Shown: positions 12,865 to 63,751 of the stretch, one piece after another
How positions within the stretch are numbered: the first letter of the stretch is position 1
Layout: each line of letters starts with the position of its first letter
NCBI RefSeq assembly: GCF_007483665.1
Contig: NZ_VIQO01000001.1
Coordinates: 372,001-436,000, forward strand
Origin: Catellatospora sichuanensis
GTDB taxonomy: Bacteria > Actinomycetota > Actinomycetes > Mycobacteriales > Micromonosporaceae
Direction of reading: 5' to 3'
DNA: 64,000 nt
The notes under the pieces: generated by a model
What the model saw: the letters and a program-made list of their open reading frames with translations, nothing else
What the model was told of the DNA's origin: nothing
The model's database searches: none
Made by a program: the position numbers and the translations under genes

Positions 12865-13261
12865 CGGTGAGGTCCTCGCCCCGGTCGAGTGCGTCCCACA
12901 CGTCGCGGGTGTTCTCGGCGCGCGGCGCCGCCGGTGCGGTACGCCGGGCGTGGCTTCCGGAACGCCGCCAGTACCAGACCGCGACCACGCCCGCGGCGAG
13001 CGCGAGCAGCGCGGGACGCACCCACGACACCGCACCGCCGGGCACGAACCACAGCACCGCCAGCGCCGCGAGCACCCCGATCACGATCATTCGGGTACGC
13101 CGCGTGCGGGCGCGCCGCACGTCGTCGGCGGCGGCGGGTGCGGGCGCTTCGGAAGTCGGGCCGCCGGTCGTGGTGGAGCCCGCCTGCGGATCCACGGTCA
13201 CTGTGCCGTCTTCGGCCGTGCCGGGCTCCGCCTGCCGGGCCGTGCCGTCGGGCGCGCTCAT
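12848..13261 (-). CDS. Small two-helix membrane protein in the trp cluster
   Basis: A 137-residue protein with a Thr/Pro/Ala-rich, probably disordered N-terminal half, a basic RRARTRRTR patch, and two close membrane segments near residues 58-75 and 80-97. The C-terminal ENTRDVWDALDRGEDLTDE resembles, from memory, the tail of the actinobacterial Trp-biosynthesis-associated membrane proteins that sit between trpE and trpC. Those usually have four segments and about 200 residues, so this could be a shortened member or an analogue. Its ATG overlaps the trpE stop as ATGA, and it runs 17 bases into the next gene. Function unknown. Confidence 0.75.
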   Translation of the reverse strand: MSAPDGTARQAEPGTAEDGTVTVDPQAGSTTTGGPTSEAPAPAAADDVRRARTRRTRMIVIGVLAALAVLWFVPGGAVSWVRPALLALAAGVVAVWYWRRSGSHARRTAPAAPRAENTRDVWDALDRGEDLTDETRV

Positions 13262-14814
13262 CGGGCGGCCTGCAGGGTCTGCGCGGTGGCGATCGCGGCG
13301 AGCACGGCCATCGCCTTGTTCTGCGTCTCCAGCTCCTCGAGCGCCGGGTCCGAGTCGGCCACCACCCCGGCCCCGGCCTGCACGTACGCGACGCCGTCGC
13401 GCAGCAGCGCGGTGCGGATCGCGATCGCCATGTCCAGGTCGCCGCCGAAGCCGAAGTAGCCGACCGTGCCGCCGTACAGGCCGCGCCGGGTCGGTTCCAG
13501 CTCCTCGATGATCTCCATGGCGCGTACCTTCGGCGCCCCGGACAGCGTGCCCGCCGGGAACGTGGCGGCCAGCGCGTCCAGCGGCGAGGTGCCCTCGCGC
13601 AGCTCGCCGACGACGGTCGAGACGATATGCATGACGTGGCTGTAGCGCTCGACCATGGCGAACTCCGGCACCTCGACGGTGCCCGCGCGCGACACCCGGC
13701 CCAGGTCGTTGCGCCCCAGGTCGACGAGCATGACGTGCTCGGAGCGCTCCTTCGGGTCCGCGATCAGCTCCGCGGCCAGCGCGGCGTCGGCCTCCGGGGA
13801 CTCGCCGCGCGGCCGGGTGCCCGCGATCGGGTGCAGCAGCGCACGGCGTACGCCGTCGTCGCCCTTGGTGATCTTCACGTGCGCCTCGGGGGACGATCCG
13901 ACGATGTCGAAGTCGTCGAAGCGCAGCAGGTACATGTACGGGCTGGGGTTGGTGGCCCGCAGCACCCGGTAGATGTCGAGCGGGTCGGCCTCGGTGCGCG
14001 TCTCGAAGCGCTGCGACACCACGATCTGGAAGCAGTCGCCGGCCCGGATCGCCTCCTTGGCCACCTCCACCGCCTTGCCGAACTCCCCGGACGGCGTGCG
14101 CGACACCAGCTCCGCGGGACGCACCGCGGTCACCGTCGAGATCATCGGCGGGGTGGGCCGGGACAGCGCCGTCGTCATCGCGTCCAGGCGGCCGATCGCG
14201 TGGTGGTAGGCCGCCGCGATCTGCTCGTCGTCGGCCTGCTCGGGCAGCACCGCGTTGGCGACCACGATCGCCTGGCCCAGGTAGTGGTCCAGCACCACCA
14301 GGTCGGTGGCTAGGAACAGGCCCAGCTCAGGCACGTGCAGGTCGTCGTCGGCCAGTTGCGGCAGCCGCTCGAACCGGCGCACCAGGTCGTACGCCAGGAA
14401 GCCGACCAGGCCGCCGGTCAGCGGCGGCAGGCCCTCGTCCTCGTCGTCCGGGCCGGTCAGCGCGGCGACCGTGGCCCGCAGCACGGCGACCGGATCGCCT
14501 TTGACCGGCACCCCGTCGGGCGGGCTGCCCAGCCAGTGCGCCTGCCCGCCGCGCTCGGTCAGCGTCGCCAGGCTGCGCACCCCGATGAAGGAGTAGCGCG
14601 ACCAGGCCGTGCCCGCCGCGCCCGCGCCCTGCTCGGCCGACTCCAGCAGGAAGGTCCCCGGGCCGCCGGCCACCTTGCGGTACACGCCGACCGGCGTCTC
14701 CGCGTCGGCCAGCAGCCGGCGGGTCACCGGCACCACCCGGCGGGCGGCCGCGCGGGCCCGGAACCCGGCCAGGTCGGGGCTGACCGCCCCGCTGCTCGCA
14801 GCGCTGCTGCTCAT
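13258..14814 (-). CDS. trpE: Anthranilate synthase component I
   Basis: Converts chorismate to anthranilate with ammonia from the TrpG subunit, which is not in this window. It is 518 residues. The N-terminal tryptophan-binding region (LLESAEQGAGAAGTAWSRYS) suggests feedback inhibition. The catalytic domain shows FQIVVSQRFE, NPSPYMYLLRF, LLHPIAGTRPRG, MLVDLGRNDLGRV, GTLSGAPKVRAMEI and YVQAGAGVVADSDP. ATG at 14814 has GCGAGGAG five to six bases upstream, supplied by the linker mini-ORF that joins it to hisI. Confidence 0.98.
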   Translation of the reverse strand: MSSSAASSGAVSPDLAGFRARAAARRVVPVTRRLLADAETPVGVYRKVAGGPGTFLLESAEQGAGAAGTAWSRYSFIGVRSLATLTERGGQAHWLGSPPDGVPVKGDPVAVLRATVAALTGPDDEDEGLPPLTGGLVGFLAYDLVRRFERLPQLADDDLHVPELGLFLATDLVVLDHYLGQAIVVANAVLPEQADDEQIAAAYHHAIGRLDAMTTALSRPTPPMISTVTAVRPAELVSRTPSGEFGKAVEVAKEAIRAGDCFQIVVSQRFETRTEADPLDIYRVLRATNPSPYMYLLRFDDFDIVGSSPEAHVKITKGDDGVRRALLHPIAGTRPRGESPEADAALAAELIADPKERSEHVMLVDLGRNDLGRVSRAGTVEVPEFAMVERYSHVMHIVSTVVGELREGTSPLDALAATFPAGTLSGAPKVRAMEIIEELEPTRRGLYGGTVGYFGFGGDLDMAIAIRTALLRDGVAYVQAGAGVVADSDPALEELETQNKAMAVLAAIATAQTLQAAR

Positions 14815-14879
14815 GCCATCTCCTCGCGGCGCTTGCCGGCGGCGTGGATCGTGCCGCCGTCCATGACCGGCCCGCTCAC
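14811..14879 (-). CDS. Coupling mini-ORF between hisI and trpE (22 codons)
   Basis: It starts with GTG overlapping the hisI stop (GTGA) and stops with TGA overlapping the trpE start (ATGA), so it fills the gap exactly. The peptide runs MSGPVMDGG then [13 protein letters not shown], whose end matches the HAADERSEEKA pattern of the other linkers. Its 3' end GCGAGGAGATGGC is the trpE ribosome site. Expression as a peptide is inferred; passage of the ribosome may be all that matters. Confidence 0.5.
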
Positions 14880-20772: not shown

Positions 20773-22572
20773 TTAGCGGGTTTGTTCGAGCCAGGAGGCG
20801 TAGAGCTTGGCGTAGGTGGAGTCGGGGGCGGTGAGGAGTTGGTCGTGGGGGCCTCGTTGGATTACCACGCCCTTGTCTACGACGATGACTTCGTCGGCGG
20901 ATTGGGCGGTGGAGAGGCGGTGGGCGATGGCGACCGTGGTGCGGCCCCGGGTCACGGCGTCGAGGGTGCGCTGGAGGCGGACCTCGGTGGCGGGGTCCAC
21001 GGCGCTGGTGGCTTCGTCGAGGACGAGTAGGTCGGGGTCGGCTACGTAGGCTCGGGCCAGGGCGACGAGTTGGCGTTCGCCGACGCTGAGGGCCTCGCCG
21101 CGCTCGCCTACGGGAGTGTCCAGGCCGTGGGCCAGGCCCTGGACCCAGTCGAGCAGGCCCAGGTCGGTGAAGGCCTGTTCCAGTTCGACGTCGGTGAGGT
21201 CGGGGCGGGCGAAGCGCACGTTCTCGGCGACCGTGGCGTCGAACAGGAAACCGTCCTGGGGGACCATCACCACCCGGCTGCGCAGTGAGGCGAAACGTAC
21301 GTCGGTCAGCGGGGTGCCCGAGAGCAGCACCCGGCCCTCGCTCGGGTCCATCAGGCGGGTGAGCAGCTTGGCGAACGTGGTCTTGCCGCTGCCGGTCTCG
21401 CCGACGACCGCGACCCGGGTCTTCGCGGGGATGTCCAGGTGCACCTCGTGCAGCACGCGGGGGCCGGGCTCGCCGTCGACCGGGTAGCTGAAGCTGACCC
21501 GCTCGAAGCTGATGTCCAGCGGGCCGTCCGGCAGGTGCACGCCGTTCTCGGCGGGGTCGGCCACGTCGGGCTTGAGGTCGACGACGTCGAGCAGCCGGCG
21601 CCAGCCCGCGACCGCGTTCTGCGCCTCGTTGAGGACTTCGGTGGCGATCTGGACAGGCTGGATGAACAGCGTGACCAGGAACAGGAACGCGGTCATCTCG
21701 CCGAGCGTGATCTGGCCCGCGATACCGAGCCGCACCCCGACCAGGACCACCGACGCCAGCGCCAGCGCGGCCGCGATCTCGCCGGTGGAGAAGCTGGTCA
21801 CGCTGATGCGCATGGCGCGGCGCTGGGCCTGCTGGTAGTCGTCGATGGTCTCGGACAGCTTCGCGCCGCTGCGCTGCGAGACGCCGTACGCCCGGATCAC
21901 CGACGCGCCCACGACCGACTCCGAGATGGCGCCGAGCATGACGCCGATCCGGCGGCGGTTCTCGGCGTACGCCCCGGACAGGCGTTTCTGGAACGCCCGG
22001 ATGACGATCACCGCGGGCAGGAACGCGGCCAGCACCACCAGCGTGAGCTGCCACGAGTAGAACGCCATCACGATCGTGGTGACCACCAGCTGGCCGCCGT
22101 TGACCATGAGGATCACGCCGCCCCACTGGATGAACTGCGTGATCGAGTCGACGTCGCTGGTCACCCGGGACACCATGGTGCCGCGGCGCTCGGACTGCTG
22201 GTGCAGCATCGACAGATCGTGGATGTGCCGGAAGGTGCGCACCCGGATGTTGGCCAGCGCGGTCTCGCTGACCGTGAACAGCCGCCGCATCATGAAGTAG
22301 CCGCAGGCCGTGGTGACCACCAGGATCAGCGCGGTGATGCCGACGATGGTCGCGATCACGCCCATGTCCGGGCCGTTCTGCCCGCCCAGCCCGCGGTCGA
22401 TGCCCTGCTGCACCGCGACCGGCACCGCCGCGCGGCCGATCATGGCGATGAGCGCCAGCCCCAGCGTGCCGGCCAGCCCCGCCTTGAGCTCGGGTGACAG
22501 CGACACGCCCCGCCGGAAGGTCGCCCAAGCCGACTCGGACCGGCCGGTATCGGTGACAGCCGACGCGCTCAC
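20773..22572 (-). CDS. ABC exporter half-transporter, catalytic subunit of a heterodimer
   Basis: A 599-residue type IV exporter half: six-helix membrane domain (residues about 25-310), then a nucleotide-binding domain with Walker A GETGSGKTT, Walker B LLVLDEATSAVD and switch histidine AIAHRLST, all intact. Its signature is altered to LSVGERQ. The partner encoded just upstream has a normal signature but altered Walker B and H-loop, so the pair should form one intact and one degenerate ATP site. GTG at 22572 has GAGGAGAAGG, provided by a linker mini-ORF. The substrate is unknown (lipid, peptide or drug). Confidence 0.93.
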   Translation of the reverse strand: MSASAVTDTGRSESAWATFRRGVSLSPELKAGLAGTLGLALIAMIGRAAVPVAVQQGIDRGLGGQNGPDMGVIATIVGITALILVVTTACGYFMMRRLFTVSETALANIRVRTFRHIHDLSMLHQQSERRGTMVSRVTSDVDSITQFIQWGGVILMVNGGQLVVTTIVMAFYSWQLTLVVLAAFLPAVIVIRAFQKRLSGAYAENRRRIGVMLGAISESVVGASVIRAYGVSQRSGAKLSETIDDYQQAQRRAMRISVTSFSTGEIAAALALASVVLVGVRLGIAGQITLGEMTAFLFLVTLFIQPVQIATEVLNEAQNAVAGWRRLLDVVDLKPDVADPAENGVHLPDGPLDISFERVSFSYPVDGEPGPRVLHEVHLDIPAKTRVAVVGETGSGKTTFAKLLTRLMDPSEGRVLLSGTPLTDVRFASLRSRVVMVPQDGFLFDATVAENVRFARPDLTDVELEQAFTDLGLLDWVQGLAHGLDTPVGERGEALSVGERQLVALARAYVADPDLLVLDEATSAVDPATEVRLQRTLDAVTRGRTTVAIAHRLSTAQSADEVIVVDKGVVIQRGPHDQLLTAPDSTYAKLYASWLEQTR

Positions 22573-22643
22573 GCCTTCTCCTCGCTGCGCTCGTCGACAG
22601 CGTGCGAAAACTGCGACATGGTTCGCTCGCTCCGCTCGCTCAC
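22569..22643 (-). CDS. Coupling mini-ORF, second tandem copy between ABC genes (24 codons)
   Basis: The peptide runs MSERSERTMSQFS then HAVDERSEEKA. Its GTG overlaps the stop of the first copy and its TGA overlaps the GTG of the downstream ABC gene (GTGA at both ends). GAGGAGAAGGC at its 3' end is the ribosome site for that gene. Repeat-derived; peptide function, if any, is unknown. Confidence 0.5.
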   Translation of the reverse strand: MSERSERTMSQFSHAVDERSEEKA

Positions 22644-22714
22644 GCCATCTCCTCGCTGCGCTCGTCGACAGCGTGAGAAAACTGCGACTCGCTCCGCTCG
22701 CTCCGCTCGCTCAC
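22640..22714 (-). CDS. Coupling mini-ORF, first tandem copy between ABC genes (24 codons)
   Basis: The peptide runs MSERSERSESQFS then HAVDERSEEMA. Its GTG overlaps the stop of the 623-residue ABC gene, and its TGA overlaps the start of the second copy. Both copies are exactly 75 bases and nearly identical, so one arose by tandem duplication that kept the couplings intact. Confidence 0.5.
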   Translation of the reverse strand: MSERSERSESQFSHAVDERSEEMA

Positions 22715-36522: not shown

Positions 36523-38258
36523 CACGAACCTCCTTCGGTCGGGATCAGTACGGCCTCATCGGGCCGGCGCGAGCTGCCGAAGCGCCGGAAGCGGGCACGC
36601 CGCTGCGCGACGAGGCGGGTCTGGTCGAGCCCCGCGAGATCGGCCAGCTCGGCATGGACGGCGGCGCGCAGCGCGGCGGCCGCGGCGACGTGGTCGGCCT
36701 CGGCGCCACCGGGCGGTTCCGGGATGACCCCTTCCACCACGCCGAGTTCGAGCAGGGATCGGGCGTCCACCCGCAGCGCCTGGGCGGCGGCGGGGGCGGC
36801 AGCGGCGTCGCGCCACAGGATCGCCGCGCAGCCCTCGGGGCTGATGACGGTGTAGAACGCGTTCTCCATGATCAGTACGCGGTCCGCGACGGCGATGCCG
36901 AGCGCGCCGCCGCTGCACCCCTCACCGGTGATCACCGAGACCACCGGCACGGGCAGCGAGCCCATCAGGCGCAGGTTCTCGGCGATCGCGGTGGCCTGGC
37001 CCTGCTCCTCGGCCTCCACCCCCGGGTGCGCCCCGGGCGTGTCCACCAGCGTGACCACGGGCAGCCCCCACTTGGCGGCCAGCCGCAGCAGCCGGGCGGC
37101 CTTGCGGTAGCCCGCCGGTCCCGGCATGCCGTAGTTGCGCAGGGCCAGCTCGCGGGTCGTGTGTCCCTTCTGGTGGCCGACCACGACCAGCGGCGTGCCG
37201 CCGAGCCGGCCGACCCCGCCGATGATCGCCGGGCAGTCGCCGCCGACCCGGTCGCCGTGCAGCTCCTCGAAGTCGTCGAGGATCATGCTGAGATAGTCGG
37301 AGGTGGTGGGCCGGGCCACGTTGCGTGCCCGGCGGACCGCCTCCCAGGCCCGCCGCTCGGCCAGCAGCGAGGGATCGCGGACCACGGTGTGCGCGCCGCC
37401 TTCGACCGGCGCGGGCGGCACCGCGTCGCGGCGGGTGCCGATCGCCAGCAGCCGGCCGATGCGGTGACGCAGCGCCGGGCGCGGGCAGATCAGATCGAGG
37501 AAGCCGCGGTCCAGCAGGAACTCCGCCGTCTGGAAGCCGGGCGGCAGCTCCTGTTTGATGGTCTGGGCGATGACCCGGGGCCCGGCGAAGCCGAGCCGCG
37601 CGCCGGGTTCGGCGACCACGACGTCGCCGAGCATCGCGAAGGAGGCGGCCACACCGCCGTAGGTCGGGTCGGTGACCAGGCAGACCGTGGGCAGCCCGGC
37701 CTCGTCGAGCTGGTGCAGCGCCTGCGCGGTCTTCGCCATCTGCATCAGGCCGATGACGCCCTCCTGCATCCGCACCCCGCCGGACGCGGTGACCAGCAGC
37801 AGCGGCAGCCGTTGCGCCAGCGCCGTCTCCGCGGCGCAGGTGATCAGCTCGCCCACCGCGCCGGACAGGCTGCCGCCCATGAAGCGGAAGTCCATCACCG
37901 CGGCGATCGCGGGCGTGCCGGCCATCCGCAGCCGGCAGCACACCACCGCCTCGGCCAGCCCGGTCGCACGCCGGGCGTCGGCGATGCGCTGCGGATACGG
38001 CTTGTCGTCGACGAAGCGCAGCGGATCCGCGGCGTCGGCAGCGAGGTCGAGCGGCTCGACCGAGCCAGGGTCGGCCAGCAGGGCGATCCGATCCCAGGCG
38101 GCCAGCGGGCGGCAGTGCCCGCACTGTGGACAGATGCCGCTGCTGCGGGCCAGCCGCTTGCCGTAGACGACGGCTCGGCAGCGGCCGCAGGACACCCAGG
38201 ACGCGGCCGGGCCGGCCGGGCCGGGCGCAATGCCCGGTCCGGCCACATCCCCGGTCAC
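36519..38258 (-). CDS. Fused carboxyltransferase beta-alpha (AccD-AccA)
   Basis: Transfers CO2 from carboxybiotin to acetyl-CoA to make malonyl-CoA. It is 579 residues. The N-terminal half is AccD-like with a zinc ribbon (Cys about 24, 27, 43 and 46) and [26 protein letters not shown]; the C-terminal half is AccA-like with [29 protein letters not shown] and [18 protein letters not shown] at 38258 is chosen because it overlaps the linker mini-ORF stop (GTGA), as in the other linkers; GTG at 38267 would add three residues. Fused AccDA is typical of polyketide clusters. Confidence 0.93.
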
Positions 38259-38329
38259 GACGCACACTCGCTTCGCGAGCGAGCGCCGTGGCGCACTGTC
38301 CGCATGATTCGCTCGCTACGCTCGCTCAT
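38255..38329 (-). CDS. Coupling mini-ORF between ACP and accDA (24 codons)
   Basis: Its ATG overlaps the ACP stop (ATGA) and its TGA overlaps the accDA start (GTGA). It is exactly 75 bases, like the his and ABC linkers. The peptide begins [16 protein letters not shown] and ends RSRSECAS, a drifted form of HAADERSEEKA. Its ribosome-site end is correspondingly degenerate (GCGAAGCGAG). Confidence 0.45.
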
Positions 38330-42859: not shown

Positions 42860-44128
42860 ATGCATCGACGTGTCGTCATTACCGGGTTGGGCGTGGTGGC
42901 GCCGGGCGGCATCGGCGCCAAGGCGTTCTGGGAGCTGTTGACCTCAGGACGCACCGCGACCCGCACCATCAGCTTCTTCGACCCCTCGCCGTTCCGGTCC
43001 CAGGTCGCCGCCGAGTGCGACTTCGACCCGGCCGCGCACGGCCTCACCCCCGCGCAGACCCTCCGGATGGACCGGGCGGCCCAGTTCGCCGTCGTGGCCG
43101 CCGCCGAGGCCGTCGAGGATGCCGGCCTGGAGCTCGCCGAGCTGGACCCGTACCGGGTCGGCACGGTGGTGGGCAGCGCGGTCGGCGCGACCATGAGCCT
43201 GGAGCGCGAGTACGTCATCGCCTCCGACCGGGGGCGGCGCTGGCTGGTCGACGACGCCCACACCTCGCCGCACCTGTACGACTACTACGTGCCCGGCTCG
43301 TTCGCGGCCGAGGTCGCCTGGTCGATCGGCGCGGAGGGCCCGGCCGCGGTGGTCTCCACCGGCTGCACGTCCGGGTTGGACGCGGTGGCGTACGCGGCCG
43401 AGCTGATCCGCGAGGGCAGCGCCGACGTGGTGGTCGGTGGGGCCAGCGACGCCCCCATCTCCCCGATCACGGTGGCCTGCTTCGACGCGATCAAGGCGAC
43501 CACGCCGCGCAACGACGACCCCGCGCACGCCTCCCGGCCGTTCGACAACAGCCGCAACGGTTTCGTGCTCGGCGAGGGCTCGGCCATGTTCGTGCTGGAG
43601 GACCTGGAACGGGCCCGCCGCCGCGGCGCGCCGGTGTACGCCGAGATCGTCGGCTTCGCCTCGCGCTGCAACGCCTTCCACATGACCGGGCTGCGCCCCG
43701 ACGGCCGCGAGATGGCCGAGGCGATCCGCAACGCCCTGGACACGGCCCGGATGGACCCGACCGCGATCGGCTACGTCAACGCGCACGGCTCGGGCACCAA
43801 GCAGAACGACCGCCACGAGACGGCCGCGGTGAAGCTGGCCCTGCGCGAGCACGCGTACGCCACCCCGATGAGCTCGATCAAGTCGATGGTCGGGCACTCG
43901 CTCGGCGCCATCGGTGCGATCGAGGTAGCCGCCTGCGCGCTGGCCATCACCAACGGCGTGGTGCCGCCCACGGCCAACCTGCACGAGCCCGACCCCGAGT
44001 GCGACCTGGACTACGTGCCGCTGGAAGCCCGTGACCGGCGGCTGGATGCGGTGCTGTCCGTGGGCAGCGGGTTCGGCGGTTTCCAGAGCGCGATGCTGCT
44101 GGCCCGCCCGGAAGGAGACGCCCGATGA
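42860..44128 (+). CDS. Type II PKS ketosynthase alpha
   Basis: A 422-residue condensing enzyme. Cys169 in [13 protein letters not shown] is the catalytic nucleophile, with histidines in [14 protein letters not shown] and [12 protein letters not shown]. The sequence closely follows TcmK/ActI-type KS-alpha throughout. Together with CLF and the ACP it builds the poly-beta-ketone chain. ATG at 42860 has AGGAGG six bases upstream. It is coupled by ATGA to CLF. No malonyl transferase is present in the window; that of fatty acid synthesis usually serves. Confidence 0.97.
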
Positions 44129-45411
44129 GCGAGCGCAGCGAGCGGATCAGGCGCACCGGACATGCCGCCGACGGGCGAGGTGAGGAGAAGGCCGCCGACG
44201 CACCCGTCGTCACCGGCCTCGGCGTCGTCGCCGCGATCGGGCTGGACGCCGAGACGTACTGGAAGGCCGTCCTGGACGGGCGCGGCGGCATCGGCCGCAT
44301 CGCCCGCTTCGACCCGGCGCAGTACCCGTCCCGGCTGGCCGGCGAGATCCGCGACTTCGACCCCGCCGCCCACCTGCCCGACCGGCTGCTGGCGCAGACC
44401 GACCACGTCACCCGGTTCTCGCTGACCGCCGCCGCGCAGGCCCTTGCCGACGCGGCGGTCGACCCGGCGGCGCTGGGCGACTACGACATGGGCGTGGTGA
44501 CGGCGAGCTCCGCGGGGGGTTTCGAGTTCGGGCAGAAGGAGCTGGAGAAGCTGTGGTCCAAGGGCGGTGACCACGTCAGCGCGTACCAGTCGTTCGCCTG
44601 GTTCTACGCGGTCAACACGGGGCAGATCTCCATCCGGCACGGCCTGCGCGGTCCCAGCGGAGTGCTGGTCACCGACCAGGCAGGCGGACTCGACGCGATC
44701 GGGCAGGCCCGTCGCCATCTGCGCGCGGGCACCGCGCTGGCGATCACCGGCGGCGTCGACGGCTCGCTGTGCCCGTGGGGCTGGATCGGGCAGCTCGCCA
44801 CCGGCCGGATCAGCGAGTCCGACGACCCGGCGCGGGCATACCTGCCGTTCGACCGGGACGCGAACGGGTTCGTGCCCGGCGAGGGCGGCGCGATCCTCGT
44901 CGTCGAGCAGCGCGAGGCCGCCCGACGCCGGGCCGCGCCGCGGGTGTACGGCGAGATCAGCGGCTACGCCGCCACCTTCGACCCGGCCCCGGACCGCAAC
45001 CGCCCGCCGGGCCTGCGCCGCGCGATCGAACTGGCCCTGGCCGACGCGGGTTGCCCCGCGACGGAGATCGACGTCGTCTTCGCCGACGCGGCCGGAGTGC
45101 CCGAACTGGACCTCGCCGAGGCCAAGGCCCTGGTCGGGGTGTTCGGCGCAGGCCGGGTGCCGGTAACCGCGCCCAAGACGATGACCGGGCGGCTCGCGGC
45201 CGGAGCGGGTGGGCTCGACGTCGCCACCGCCCTGCTGTCCCTGCGTGACCAGGTCATCCCGCCGACCATCAACGTCGGCACGCTCGCCGACGGCTGCGCC
45301 GACCTCGACCTGGTGGTCGACGCCGCCCGCCCCGCACCGCTGCGCCGCGCCCTGGTGCTGGCCCGCGGCATCGGCGGCTTCAACGCCGCCGTGGTCGTGA
45401 CCGCCCCGTAG
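44125..45411 (+). CDS. Type II PKS chain length factor (ketosynthase beta)
   Basis: A 428-residue partner of KS-alpha that sets chain length. The nucleophile position is glutamine (Gln185 in [13 protein letters not shown]), the hallmark of a CLF. The first 23 residues ([12 protein letters not shown], then [11 protein letters not shown]) are not CLF sequence: they match the linker mini-ORFs found between other operon genes, with the stop lost so that the linker is translated as an extension before [13 protein letters not shown]. The start overlaps the KS-alpha stop as ATGA. Confidence 0.96.
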
Positions 45412-61246: not shown

Positions 61247-61299
61247 GTGACCACTCCATCGCCCTCGACGTCGGGGGCGAGCCTAACGAGCGGGCTCAC
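61243..61299 (-). CDS. Coupling mini-ORF between hisH and the membrane protein (18 codons)
   Basis: GTG overlaps the hisH stop (GTGA) and TGA overlaps the next ATG (ATGA). The peptide [18 protein letters not shown] lacks the DERSEEKA ending, so it is built like the other linkers but not clearly of the same sequence family. Confidence 0.4.
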   Translation of the reverse strand: MSPLVRLAPDVEGDGVVT

Positions 61300-61919
61300 A
61301 ACGTGGCGATCCAGTTCCGCAGCACGCGCGCGCCGACCGCGCCGGACTTCTCCGGGTGGAACTGGGCGACCGCCAGCGGCCCCCGTTCCGCGGCGGCGAC
61401 GAACGTCGCGTGCTCGTGGGTCGACGTGGTGACCAGTGCGACCGCGTCCAGTTCGGCGTTGGGCAGCGCGGCGTACGAGTGCACGAAGTAGCAGCGCGCA
61501 TCGGCCTCGACGCCGGTGAACAGCGTCGAGCCGGAGGGCGCGTCGAGCAGGTTCCAGCCCATGTGCGGCACCCGGCGCGCGGCCAGCCGGGTCACCGCGC
61601 CGGGCAGCAGGCCCAGGCCCTTGGTGACCACGCCGTGCTCGTCGCCCGAGTCGAACATGATCTGCGCGCCGACGCAGATGCCCAGCACCGGCCGGCCGGC
61701 CATGACCCGGTCGGCGATCACCGGCCCGGCCTGCGCCGCCTCGATGCCCGCCATGCACGCGGCGAACGCGCCCACACCCGGCACCACCAGTCCGTCGGCC
61801 CGCTCGGCGGCGGACAGGTCGGTAGTGACGACCACCTCGGCGCCCGCCGCCTCCAGCGCCCGCTGCGCCGAGCGCAGGTTGCCCGACCCGTAGTCGAGCA
61901 CCGTCACCTTCGGGCTCAT
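61296..61919 (-). CDS. hisH: Imidazole glycerol phosphate synthase amidotransferase subunit
   Basis: A 207-residue class I glutaminase that feeds ammonia to HisF. The catalytic cysteine is in LGICVGAQIMF, and the His/Glu pair is in AQFHPEKSG. The oxyanion region VPGVGAF is present. ATG at 61919 has GAGGAGAAGGC directly upstream, which is the end of the linker mini-ORF joining it to hisB. Its partner hisF lies 3 kb further on, after lysR and eamA. Confidence 0.97.
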   Translation of the reverse strand: MSPKVTVLDYGSGNLRSAQRALEAAGAEVVVTTDLSAAERADGLVVPGVGAFAACMAGIEAAQAGPVIADRVMAGRPVLGICVGAQIMFDSGDEHGVVTKGLGLLPGAVTRLAARRVPHMGWNLLDAPSGSTLFTGVEADARCYFVHSYAALPNAELDAVALVTTSTHEHATFVAAAERGPLAVAQFHPEKSGAVGARVLRNWIATL

Positions 61920-61990
61920 GCCTTCTCCTCGCTGCGCTCGTCGGCGGCGTGAATCCATGCCCGTCCGATGAGCTCGCTGCGCTCGCTCAT
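61916..61990 (-). CDS. Coupling mini-ORF between hisB and hisH (24 codons)
   Basis: The clearest member of the family: MSERSELIGRAWI then HAADERSEEKA. ATG overlaps the hisB stop and TGA overlaps the hisH start (ATGA at both ends); length is 75 bases. GAGGAGAAGGC at the end is the hisH ribosome site. Confidence 0.55.
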   Translation of the reverse strand: MSERSELIGRAWIHAADERSEEKA

Positions 61991-62613
61991 AGCACGCCCT
62001 TCGTGCTCGGGACCGCACCGGCGCTGCGGGGGTCGATCTCCACGGCGGTACGCAGCGCGCGGGCCAGCGCCTTGAACTGCCCCTCGATGACGTGGTGCGC
62101 GTCGGGCTTCTGCCCCGGGCGGGACGCCCGCAGCACCGACACGTGCAGCGTGATCCGCGCGGTCTGCCCGAAGGACTCGAAGATGTGCCGTGTCATCGAG
62201 GTCGGGTAGACGGGCCCGCTGCCCGGGTTGATGTAGTCGGCGATGTCCGTCGGCTCGTCGTGCACCACGTACGGCCGGCCCGACAGGTCGACCGCGGCCT
62301 GCACGAGCACCTCGTCCATCGGCACCACCGCGTCGCCGTAGCGGCGGATGCCCGCCTTGTCGCCGAGCGCCTGGGCGAACGCCTCGCCCAGGGCGAGCGC
62401 GGTGTCCTCCATGGTGTGGTGCGCGTCGATCTCGAGGTCGCCCTCGGTGCGCACGGTCAGGTCGAAGCCGCCGTGCCGGGCGATCTGGTTGAGCATGTGG
62501 TCGAAGAAGCCGACCCCGGTGCTGATCTCGCCCCGGCCCGTGCCGTCGAGGTCGATCTCGACGAGGACCTTGGTCTCCTTGGTGACCCGCTCCACGCGTC
62601 CGGTCCTGGTCAT
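61987..62613 (-). CDS. hisB: Imidazoleglycerol-phosphate dehydratase
   Basis: Removes water from imidazole glycerol phosphate; manganese enzyme. It is 208 residues, the single-function form. The two metal motifs are DAHHTMEDTALALGEAF and DAHHVIEGQFKALARALR, and GFFDHMLNQIARHGGFD is present. ATG at 62613 overlaps the stop of the hisC-hisB linker mini-ORF, and GAGGCAAGGGC is the ribosome site. Confidence 0.98.
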   Translation of the reverse strand: MTRTGRVERVTKETKVLVEIDLDGTGRGEISTGVGFFDHMLNQIARHGGFDLTVRTEGDLEIDAHHTMEDTALALGEAFAQALGDKAGIRRYGDAVVPMDEVLVQAAVDLSGRPYVVHDEPTDIADYINPGSGPVYPTSMTRHIFESFGQTARITLHVSVLRASRPGQKPDAHHVIEGQFKALARALRTAVEIDPRSAGAVPSTKGVL

Positions 62614-62678
62614 GCCCTTGCCTCGCTTCGCTCGTCCCCGGCCTGCGCGCGGGGGTTGCCGGTCGGCCGCGCGCTCAT
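62610..62678 (-). CDS. Coupling mini-ORF between hisC and hisB (22 codons)
   Basis: Starts [12 protein letters not shown] and ends [10 protein letters not shown], the shared DERSE ending with a different front. ATG overlaps the hisC stop and TGA overlaps the hisB start (both ATGA). Confidence 0.5.
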
Positions 62679-63751
62679 GGCCGCAGCTCCTTCATCGCGT
62701 TCAGGAACGCGGTCGTCTCCTGCTCGGTCCCCGCGGTGACGCGCAGCCATCCGGGCAGGCCCACGTCGCGGACCAGCACGCCCTGGTCGAGCAGAGTCTG
62801 CCAGGCCGCCTTCTGGTCGGCGAACCGTCCGAACAGGACGAAGTTGGCGTCCGAGTCGGCCACCGTCCAGCCGCCCCCGCGCAGGTCCGCGACGATGCGG
62901 TCGCGCTGCGCCTTGATCGCTTCCACGGTGCCCAGCAGCACGTCCGCGTGCGCCAGCGCGGCGCGGGCGGCGGCCTGGGTGAGCGCGGAGAGGTGGTACG
63001 GCAGGCGCACCAGCTGCACCGCCTCCACGACCGCCGGGTGCGCGGCGAGGTAGCCGACCCGGGCCCCGGCGAAGGCGAACGCCTTGCTCATGGTGCGGCT
63101 GACCACCAGCCGCGGGTGCTTGTCGAGCAGCTCCAGCGCGCTCGGCGTGCCGGGGCGGCGGAACTCGGCATACGCCTCGTCCACCACGACCAGGCCGCTC
63201 GTCTCGGCCAGCACCGCCTCGATCACGGCGAAGTCCAGCGCGGTGCCGGTCGGGTTGTTCGGCGAGCACAGCAGCGTCAGCGCGGGCCGGTGCTCCCGGA
63301 CCTGCTCGACCGCGTGCTCGACGGTCAGCCCGAAGTCCGCGTCGCGACGGCCGTCCGCCCAGGTGGTGGCGGTGCCGACGGCCAGCAGCGGATGCATCGA
63401 GTACGCCGGGCCGAAGCCCAGCACGATGCGTCCCGGCCCGGCGAACGCCTGGAACAGCTGCTGCTGCACCTCGTTGGAGCCGTTGGCGGCCCACAGCTGC
63501 TCCGCGGTCAGCCCGTGTCCGCAGTAGGCGGCCAGGTCGGCGCGCAGCTTCACGGCGTCCCGGTCGGGGTAGCGGTTCAGGTCCGCGATCTCCCCGGTGA
63601 TCGCCCGGCTCACCGCCCGCACCACCTCGTCGGGCAGCGGGTACGAGTTCTCGTTCGTGTTCAGCCGCACCGGCACGTCCAGCTGCGGCGCACCGTACGC
63701 GCTGAGCCCGCGCAGATCCTCCCGCAGCAGCTCCTGCACCCACTCGCTCAT
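62675..63751 (-). CDS. hisC: Histidinol-phosphate aminotransferase
   Basis: A 358-residue PLP enzyme that makes histidinol phosphate. The cofactor lysine is in [48 protein letters not shown] and the C-terminal arginine region [11 protein letters not shown] are present. ATG at 63751 overlaps the hisD stop as ATGA. The stop overlaps a linker mini-ORF leading into hisB. Confidence 0.97.

Follow-up and report, generated by a model that had tools for sequence, protein, structure and literature searches.

Results

Short coupled linkers in the his operon and elsewhere in the window

In the 64-kb stretch of DNA that we analyzed (the window), a hisC-like aminotransferase gene (62675-63751, Pfam PF00155), hisB, which encodes imidazoleglycerol-phosphate dehydratase (61987-62613, Pfam PF00475), and a hisH-like glutamine amidotransferase gene (61296-61919, Pfam PF00117, matched with a query that began one codon upstream, at 61922) follow one another on the minus strand, and a short open reading frame (mini-ORF) on the same strand fills each of the two gaps between them. 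The hisC/hisB element (62610-62678) is diverged, with a 22-codon mini-ORF and a recognizable right half, GACGAGCGAAGCGAGG; one ATGA (62675-62678) holds the upstream stop and another (62610-62613) the downstream start. The hisB/hisH element (61916-61990) has a 24-codon mini-ORF that encodes the peptide MSERSELIGRAWIHAADERSEEKA, and it runs from the ATGA of the hisB stop (61987-61990) to the ATGA of the hisH start (61916-61919). A sequence-only reading of the window had described frames of 22 and 24 codons with an ATGA overlap at each end in these two gaps, and our analysis confirms them.

The same reading named four further places with this design, and we found the element at all four. At 14811-14879 (minus strand), a GTGA...ATGA copy with a 22-codon frame lies upstream of a TrpE-like gene (13258-14814). 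At 22569-22714 (minus strand), two tandem units (22640-22714 and 22569-22643) with a common GTGA lie between two ABC-transporter genes. The copy at 38255-38329 (minus strand), upstream of a carboxyltransferase gene, has a 24-codon ATGA...GTGA frame, the usual left hairpin (see below) and a changed, palindromic right end. The copy at 44125-44193 (plus strand) lacks the final stop, and its frame continues into a ketosynthase-like gene (44125-45411). The protein from this gene carries an N-terminal extension of about 22 residues that comes from the stopless mini-ORF; among relatives, the extension is either absent or present as another in-frame version.

The linkers are copies of one dispersed repeat

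When we searched the 9.45-Mb genome from which the window comes (G000), we found 116 matches to the 3' (right) end of the element at up to 3 mismatches (47 forward, 69 reverse) and none to the reversed right-end pattern used as a control. The left end gave 105 matches at up to 2 mismatches, as compared to 9 for its control. Thus, the linkers are copies of one dispersed repeat of about 70 bases that is present far above chance.

The copies were analyzed in 100 stretches that add up to about 2.0 Mb and of which 86 are centered on listed matches. They contain 123 right ends (up to 4 mismatches) that close with RTGA (ATGA or GTGA); for 104 of them, a recognizable left end lies 40-99 nt upstream, and the other 19 were excluded from frame counts. 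These 104 copies group into 81 arrays, of which 67 are single, 8 double, 3 triple and 3 quadruple, so that 14 are tandem.

At up to 2 mismatches, the right-end consensus is found in 75 of the 200 family genomes that were searched and the reversed control in none of them, and the number of copies per genome ranges from 1 to 117 across 11 members of the genus. In a class-wide sample, the consensus was found in 5 of 296 genomes, namely all 3 of the same family (including the window genome) and 2 of 293 others. The consensus therefore appears nearly confined to the family of the window genome among the genomes sampled, in a search that would miss more diverged relatives. Genomes G331 and G449, both of another family (f20), have one two-mismatch right-end match each (loci L308 and L307). 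Carriage on phages or plasmids was considered and rejected: the exact right-end pattern occurs in 0 viral contigs, and blastn with one copy (query offset by 3 nt from the element) gave no match to plasmids. The his junction region matched plasmid records at 60-80% identity only.

Copies keep a reading frame and mostly sit on gene overlaps

The distance from the first to the last RTGA ranges from 47 to 74 nt, and the in-frame lengths are spaced in steps of three. Of the 104 copies, 100 have start and stop in the same frame, as do 63 of the 67 singletons (p=1e-25); ties between left ends were settled here by nearness to 71 nt, itself an in-frame length. With a random, neutral choice of left end, the frame is kept in 99 of 104 copies (3 ambiguous), and with the nearest RTGA at up to 2 mismatches as the left end, it is kept in 95 of 100. 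In relatives, 121 right ends (25 without a left end) yield 96 copies, of which 90 are in frame; this count excludes loci L310 and L311 and counts the same site in several relatives separately. All four out-of-frame singletons lie outside double-coupled junctions (in frame at 43/43 such junctions vs 20/24 elsewhere, p=0.014). Locus L079 (G000:C20:71267), a 69-nt copy, is an exception to the frame rule, and it is likewise out of frame in L340 (G129). Conservation of the frame could stem in part from descent from a few in-frame master copies.

To place the copies with respect to genes, we judged coding starts and stops from codon usage, with a score that had been trained on 203 long ORFs, rather than from annotation. 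Of the 81 arrays, 76 overlap a downstream start, and 56 of the 81 have an RTGA overlap on each side, with an upstream stop and with a downstream start; among the other 25, 20 overlap the downstream start only, 4 the upstream stop only and 1 neither. In controls, double overlap was found at 54 of 4000 random RTGA sites, at 20 of 4000 RTGA pairs with a 71-bp gap, and at 0 of 81 real sites shifted by 1 or 2 nt. Exact double overlaps are therefore enriched over chance, which answers a test that the earlier reading had set for itself, and its claim that an insertion leaves the coupling geometry intact on both sides agrees with these 56 arrays. The targets of the element would be RTGA tetranucleotides that serve as start codons, in most cases at places where the RTG start of a downstream gene overlaps the TGA stop of the gene before it.

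Orthologous junctions are empty in some relatives

To see what the junctions look like elsewhere, we compared the six window sites with their counterparts in the genus. In 11 genus genomes, the hisB/hisH junction carries a full 71-nt element in three (G000, G087 and G100), a shortened in-frame linker in three more (a 26-nt remnant in G129 and G109, 38 nt in G118) and a plain GTGA overlap in five (G133, G051, G071, G016 and G125). The hisC/hisB junction has the element in G000, G087 and G129 and is empty, with a plain ATGA overlap, in the other 8 of 11. At the 22569 array, G051, G016 and G133 have an empty GTGA overlap, G100 has a double array and G071 has a single, different unit. G100 has an element at the 14811 site, and G071, in which the upstream gene is diverged at its end, has none; the 38255 site is empty in all three relatives compared (G071, G051 and G100); and the 44125 site is empty in G051 and in G071 and G100 holds another in-frame version. 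At both his junctions and at the four other sites, the empty counterpart is a direct 4-bp RTGA overlap of the two genes. Copies, placement and empty sites agree with the earlier proposal of one family of mobile-looking elements inserted at coupled start/stop overlaps, and we infer that the element as such is mobile.

Both ends covary as hairpins that include RTGA

A mutual-information scan over 77 dereplicated in-frame elements proposed that the ends would form two imperfect hairpins on the coding strand, with stems that hold both RTGA sequences. The left stem consists of R1-Y23, T2-A22, G3.A21, A4.G20, G5-C19, C6-G18, G7.A17, A8.G16, G9-C15 and C10-G14, around a three-base loop that is GNA in 25 of 51. 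The right stem, TCAYGCC...GGCRTGA, surrounds the core GACGAGC-GNA-GCGAGGAG (GNA in 67 of 77). Each stem includes the RTGA of its own end, and both have many G.A pairs. In the hisB/hisH element, the left hairpin lies at 61968-61990 and the right one at 61916-61952 (minus strand), and the left one has G-C and A-T in place of the outer G.A and A.G pairs (the GAGCTCATC form); such joint replacement of G.A and A.G by G-C and A-T is found in 3 of 40 distinct left ends.

When we scored the standard pairs of the left stem over 40 distinct sequences, 224 of 240 cells were paired, as compared to at most 98 of 240 when the arms were slid; a separate count that admits G.A pairs does not prefer this register (146/160 as proposed, 152/160 when slid by -2). 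The loop is the most variable part of the hairpin, with an entropy of 1.39-1.47 bits vs at most 0.81 elsewhere in the hairpin. We found no excess folding stability over shuffles in the three elements that we folded with a nearest-neighbor model (z from -0.03 to 1.64); what backs the hairpin ends on one strand is the covariation together with the slid controls rather than the folding energy. Exceptional stability has been described for mini-hairpins of DNA such as d(GCGAAGC) (PMC10527192).

The first base of the element, R, is linked to the Y 22 nt away: in the window genome, we counted A-T 52, G-C 11, A-C 2, G-T 2 and G-G 2 (p=4e-9, with the two G-G excluded from the test and 12 of 81 unscorable), and in relatives A-T 47, G-C 10, A-C 5 and G-T 3 (p=4e-6, with 6 that have other letters and 15 unscored). 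The last R behaves similarly with its facing base, with A-T 33, G-C 4, G-T 3 and A-C 2 (p=0.004; 0.0003 in relatives), while the facing base is G in 5 and 34 of 81 are not in context. In thirteen further copies, whose right ends differ in sequence, the terminal stem has a mean of 7.8 pairs vs 5.1 when shuffled; two of them have stems of 10 and 13 bp that include the RTGA bases (0/300 shuffles each), three belong to one tandem array and four have no excess over shuffles. In 95 ordinary copies, the mean is 5.9 pairs vs 4.5 in shuffles.

The bases of the left loop often differ between orthologous sites while the stem is kept, for example TCC/AAC in L037/L357, or AGT/GCA and AGT/AGC in L080 as compared to L281 and L341, where stem pairs are unchanged. 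Either the loop is locally hypervariable or one copy has been replaced by another. The strongest covariation in the scan joins positions 9 and 29 of the right hairpin (columns 58 and 78) in mostly non-Watson-Crick combinations (C with A, G with C, A with G, T with C or A).

Ribosome site, peptide and mRNA fold

To ask what the insertion does to the downstream start, we compared predicted Shine-Dalgarno pairing before and after the element. The medians are about equal (-9.3 vs -8.9 kcal/mol, with -3.1 at random positions), and pairing is stronger with the element in 31 of 56 junctions (2 ties, p=0.25). The ribosome site that had been reported at the end of each unit is present, and it is predicted to be about as strong as the one it displaced; the suggestion that it strengthens the downstream start is not supported by these values. 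As the upstream stop would overlap the mini-ORF start and the mini-ORF stop the downstream start, a terminating ribosome could re-initiate twice, and the Shine-Dalgarno site at the end of the element would help it to do so. We infer that the mini-ORF is translated, with re-initiation at both overlaps, and that selection probably acts on the frame and on both ends rather than on the peptide.

The conserved frame and the look-alike peptide ends could also be read as conserved micro-genes that encode a functional DERSEEKA peptide and were never inserted. This reading is scarcely tenable: it is contradicted by the empty orthologous sites, mini-ORF peptides differ between orthologous sites, and within the copies the loop bases vary and alter amino acids while third-codon positions in the stem are conserved. 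Because loops alter amino acids and orthologous copies differ, the peptide sequence seems not to be under selection. A role of the hairpins chiefly in mRNA control, in which the downstream start and ribosome site stay masked by the right hairpin until reading of the mini-ORF opens it, so that coupling becomes obligatory, would account for the position of the ribosome site and RTG on the 3' arm of that hairpin, and RNA folding placed the start codon within the stem of a right hairpin for two of three elements (not for the hisB/hisH copy). However, the ribosome-site hexamer is predicted to be less paired in 43 single double-coupled elements than in the joined empty junctions (0.41 vs 0.66, p=1e-7), not more as a hidden site would be, and the start codon does not differ significantly (0.61 vs 0.51, p=0.23), with a folding model that may undervalue tandem G.A pairs. 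We therefore rejected a ribosome site hidden in the mRNA. A site that is as good as the displaced one and unhidden in the predicted fold argues against an mRNA switch, which we regard as unlikely, and makes it more likely that the hairpins act in single-stranded DNA.

The linkage of R and Y could, alternatively, mark two inherited subfamilies (ATGA/AATC and GTGA/AACC) instead of base pairing. Across 28 pairs of orthologous occupied sites, no switch from A-T to G-C is seen at the first R-Y pair, and the copies of relatives and those of the window genome do not count as independent. In contrast, the link was scored over full left ends and left ends shortened by 9 nt and also holds in relatives, stem pair 9-15 shows a compensatory difference in place between orthologues (A-T in L042, G-C in L351), and two right ends of other sequence retain the 10-bp and 13-bp stems with the RTGA bases. 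On this evidence we hold the subfamily reading to be doubtful, although a real contender. The R-Y covariation is compatible with the choice of a target by an internal guide, among other readings.

A search for what moves the element

IS200/IS605 elements have hairpin ends, insert at a tetranucleotide target and show a base-pair-like linkage of the target to an internal base. Our element shares hairpin ends on one strand with these and with REP/RAYT elements, along with a short target by one end and a target base that covaries with an internal base; it differs in that it has no linked Y1 transposase, a conserved mini-ORF and RTGA at both ends. These resemblances would suit mobilization by a host Y1 transposase, and within the genus, a Y1 match is present in 6 of the 7 genomes that have 16 or more copies, as compared to 0 of the 4 that have at most 7. 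However, three of these six (G129, G118 and G087) have interrupted or partial matches only, and the one Y1 match in the window genome belongs to an ordinary IS605-like tnpA/tnpB pair with ends unlike those of the element. Over 200 family genomes, 21 have both element and Y1, 54 the element only, 31 Y1 only and 94 neither, which is no association (p=0.62). What was suggestive in 11 genus genomes is thus lost over the family, and we consider a Y1 transposase quite improbable as the mover of the element. The sole Y1 match of the window genome (L109, G000:C22:41173-41535) lies beside a tnpB-like gene and has GGCCCTGAAGGGCC-type ends.

We also looked for a parent element with a gene between left and right ends and saw none in the 100 stretches. 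In these stretches, 16 of 83 full-form left ends have no standard right end within 110 nt; for 3 of the 16, a right end follows 110-6000 nt further on, and of these L019 and L073 begin complete short frames and in L074 the right end is at 149 nt. No mobilizing enzyme for the element was found.

Comparison with mycobacterial MIRUs

According to a 2025 review in J Bacteriol (PMC12548453, which cites Supply 1997), MIRUs of mycobacteria insert at start codons and carry an ORF coupled at -4 spacing, and the senX3/regX3 interval is reported to contain 77- and 53-bp MIRUs (PMC4213456). The sequence-only reading had stated that no described element behaves in this way; this was wrong, as MIRUs with such behavior are described in the review (PMC12548453). 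It had also overlooked the two hairpins, the link of their covariation to RTGA and the empty sites.

Using a MIRU core as the query, we found it in at least 115 stretches, and 77 of the 80 matches listed are from Mycobacterium or Mycolicibacterium. The matches listed also include metagenome bins, at L124 and L134 (Actinomycetota) and L189 (Rhodothermales), and the core in these non-Mycobacterium bins could reflect real spread or binning error. Several MIRU loci among the matches listed have tandem copies about 46-54 bp apart. With the three loci from other bins left out, DTGA flanks 97 of 134 MIRU copies on both sides, and 68 of these are in frame. When we examined the MIRU outer stem over 72 distinct arm pairs, we found 28 double-sided compensatory cells vs a shuffled mean of 9.5 (0/1000), and 333 of 432 cells paired (77%) vs at most 44% when slid.

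The mean similarity of 100 elements to the MIRU unit is 25.2 vs at most 18.6 in 200 shuffles, with a best single value of 37 vs 41 in shuffles; the MIRU core occurs at 0 places in the window genome at up to 1 mismatch, and the right-end consensus of the element occurs in 0 of 115 MIRU loci. Like MIRUs, the element is a short interspersed repeat partly in tandem (116 copies; 67 single and 14 tandem arrays) that sits at start codons (76/81) with an internal ORF coupled at -4 (56/81; frame 100/104), has RTGA at both ends and is apparently mobile, as judged from empty sites; the core, GAGCGNAGCGA...GAGGAG with a GNA loop and a covarying stem, is also similar. In contrast, the RTGA-to-RTGA spacing is 47-74 nt in the element and mostly 50-54 in MIRUs, the extra left hairpin is found in the element and not in MIRUs, and RTGA is inside the stems in the element and just outside the stem, as drawn here, in MIRUs.

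Other small repeats share parts of this design. Rickettsia palindromic elements and enterobacterial RU elements are described as small mobile repeats with a frame compatible with neighboring genes and fused into proteins (PMC2229807). The copy at 44125-44193 is such an in-frame fusion, whereas most elements here are intergenic with their own start and stop. Stem-loop repeat families, among them Myt-11, which "contains MIRU repeats", are likewise repeated, folding sequences, and their description in the sections of PMC2267715 consulted links them neither to RTGA covariation nor to coupling.

Discussion

Taken together, these data make it highly probable that the linkers are a small, non-autonomous MIRU-type repeat, with coupled re-initiation and with hairpin stems that hold the RTGA sequences. 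The coupling behavior is already known from MIRUs, and the element resembles a two-hairpin version of these. What seems to be new is that there is a second hairpin, that both hairpins covary with RTGA, that the MIRU stem shows compensatory changes and that copy numbers contrast among close relatives. In the parts consulted of the open literature on MIRUs, coupling and stem-loop repeats, we found no account of these features.

The hairpins presumably serve mobility, and their folds suggest how MIRU-like repeats may recognize landing sites. Recognition of RTGA on single-stranded DNA fits the hairpin covariation. If RTGA were read by pairing at the foot of the hairpin, the target would by construction be a start codon or a stop/start overlap. 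We tentatively extend this to a broader proposal, which we think rather more apt to fail than to hold: MIRU-type repeats may be single-stranded-DNA elements with G.A/GNA hairpin ends whose foot reads RTGA (R with the internal Y), a non-Y1 enzyme may move them across actinomycetes, and the mini-ORF may be the price of landing.

MIRUs underlie MIRU-VNTR, a standard typing method for tuberculosis, and we found no account of how they spread in those parts of the literature that were searched. With a two-hairpin relative that reaches 117 copies per genome and leaves clean empty sites, their insertion chemistry and the cost of a coupled insertion can be tested directly outside pathogens. MSERSER-type N-termini in gene calls may be derived from the element, and the gene at 44125 is one such case. 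The element shows that mobile DNA can occupy housekeeping operons without breaking them.
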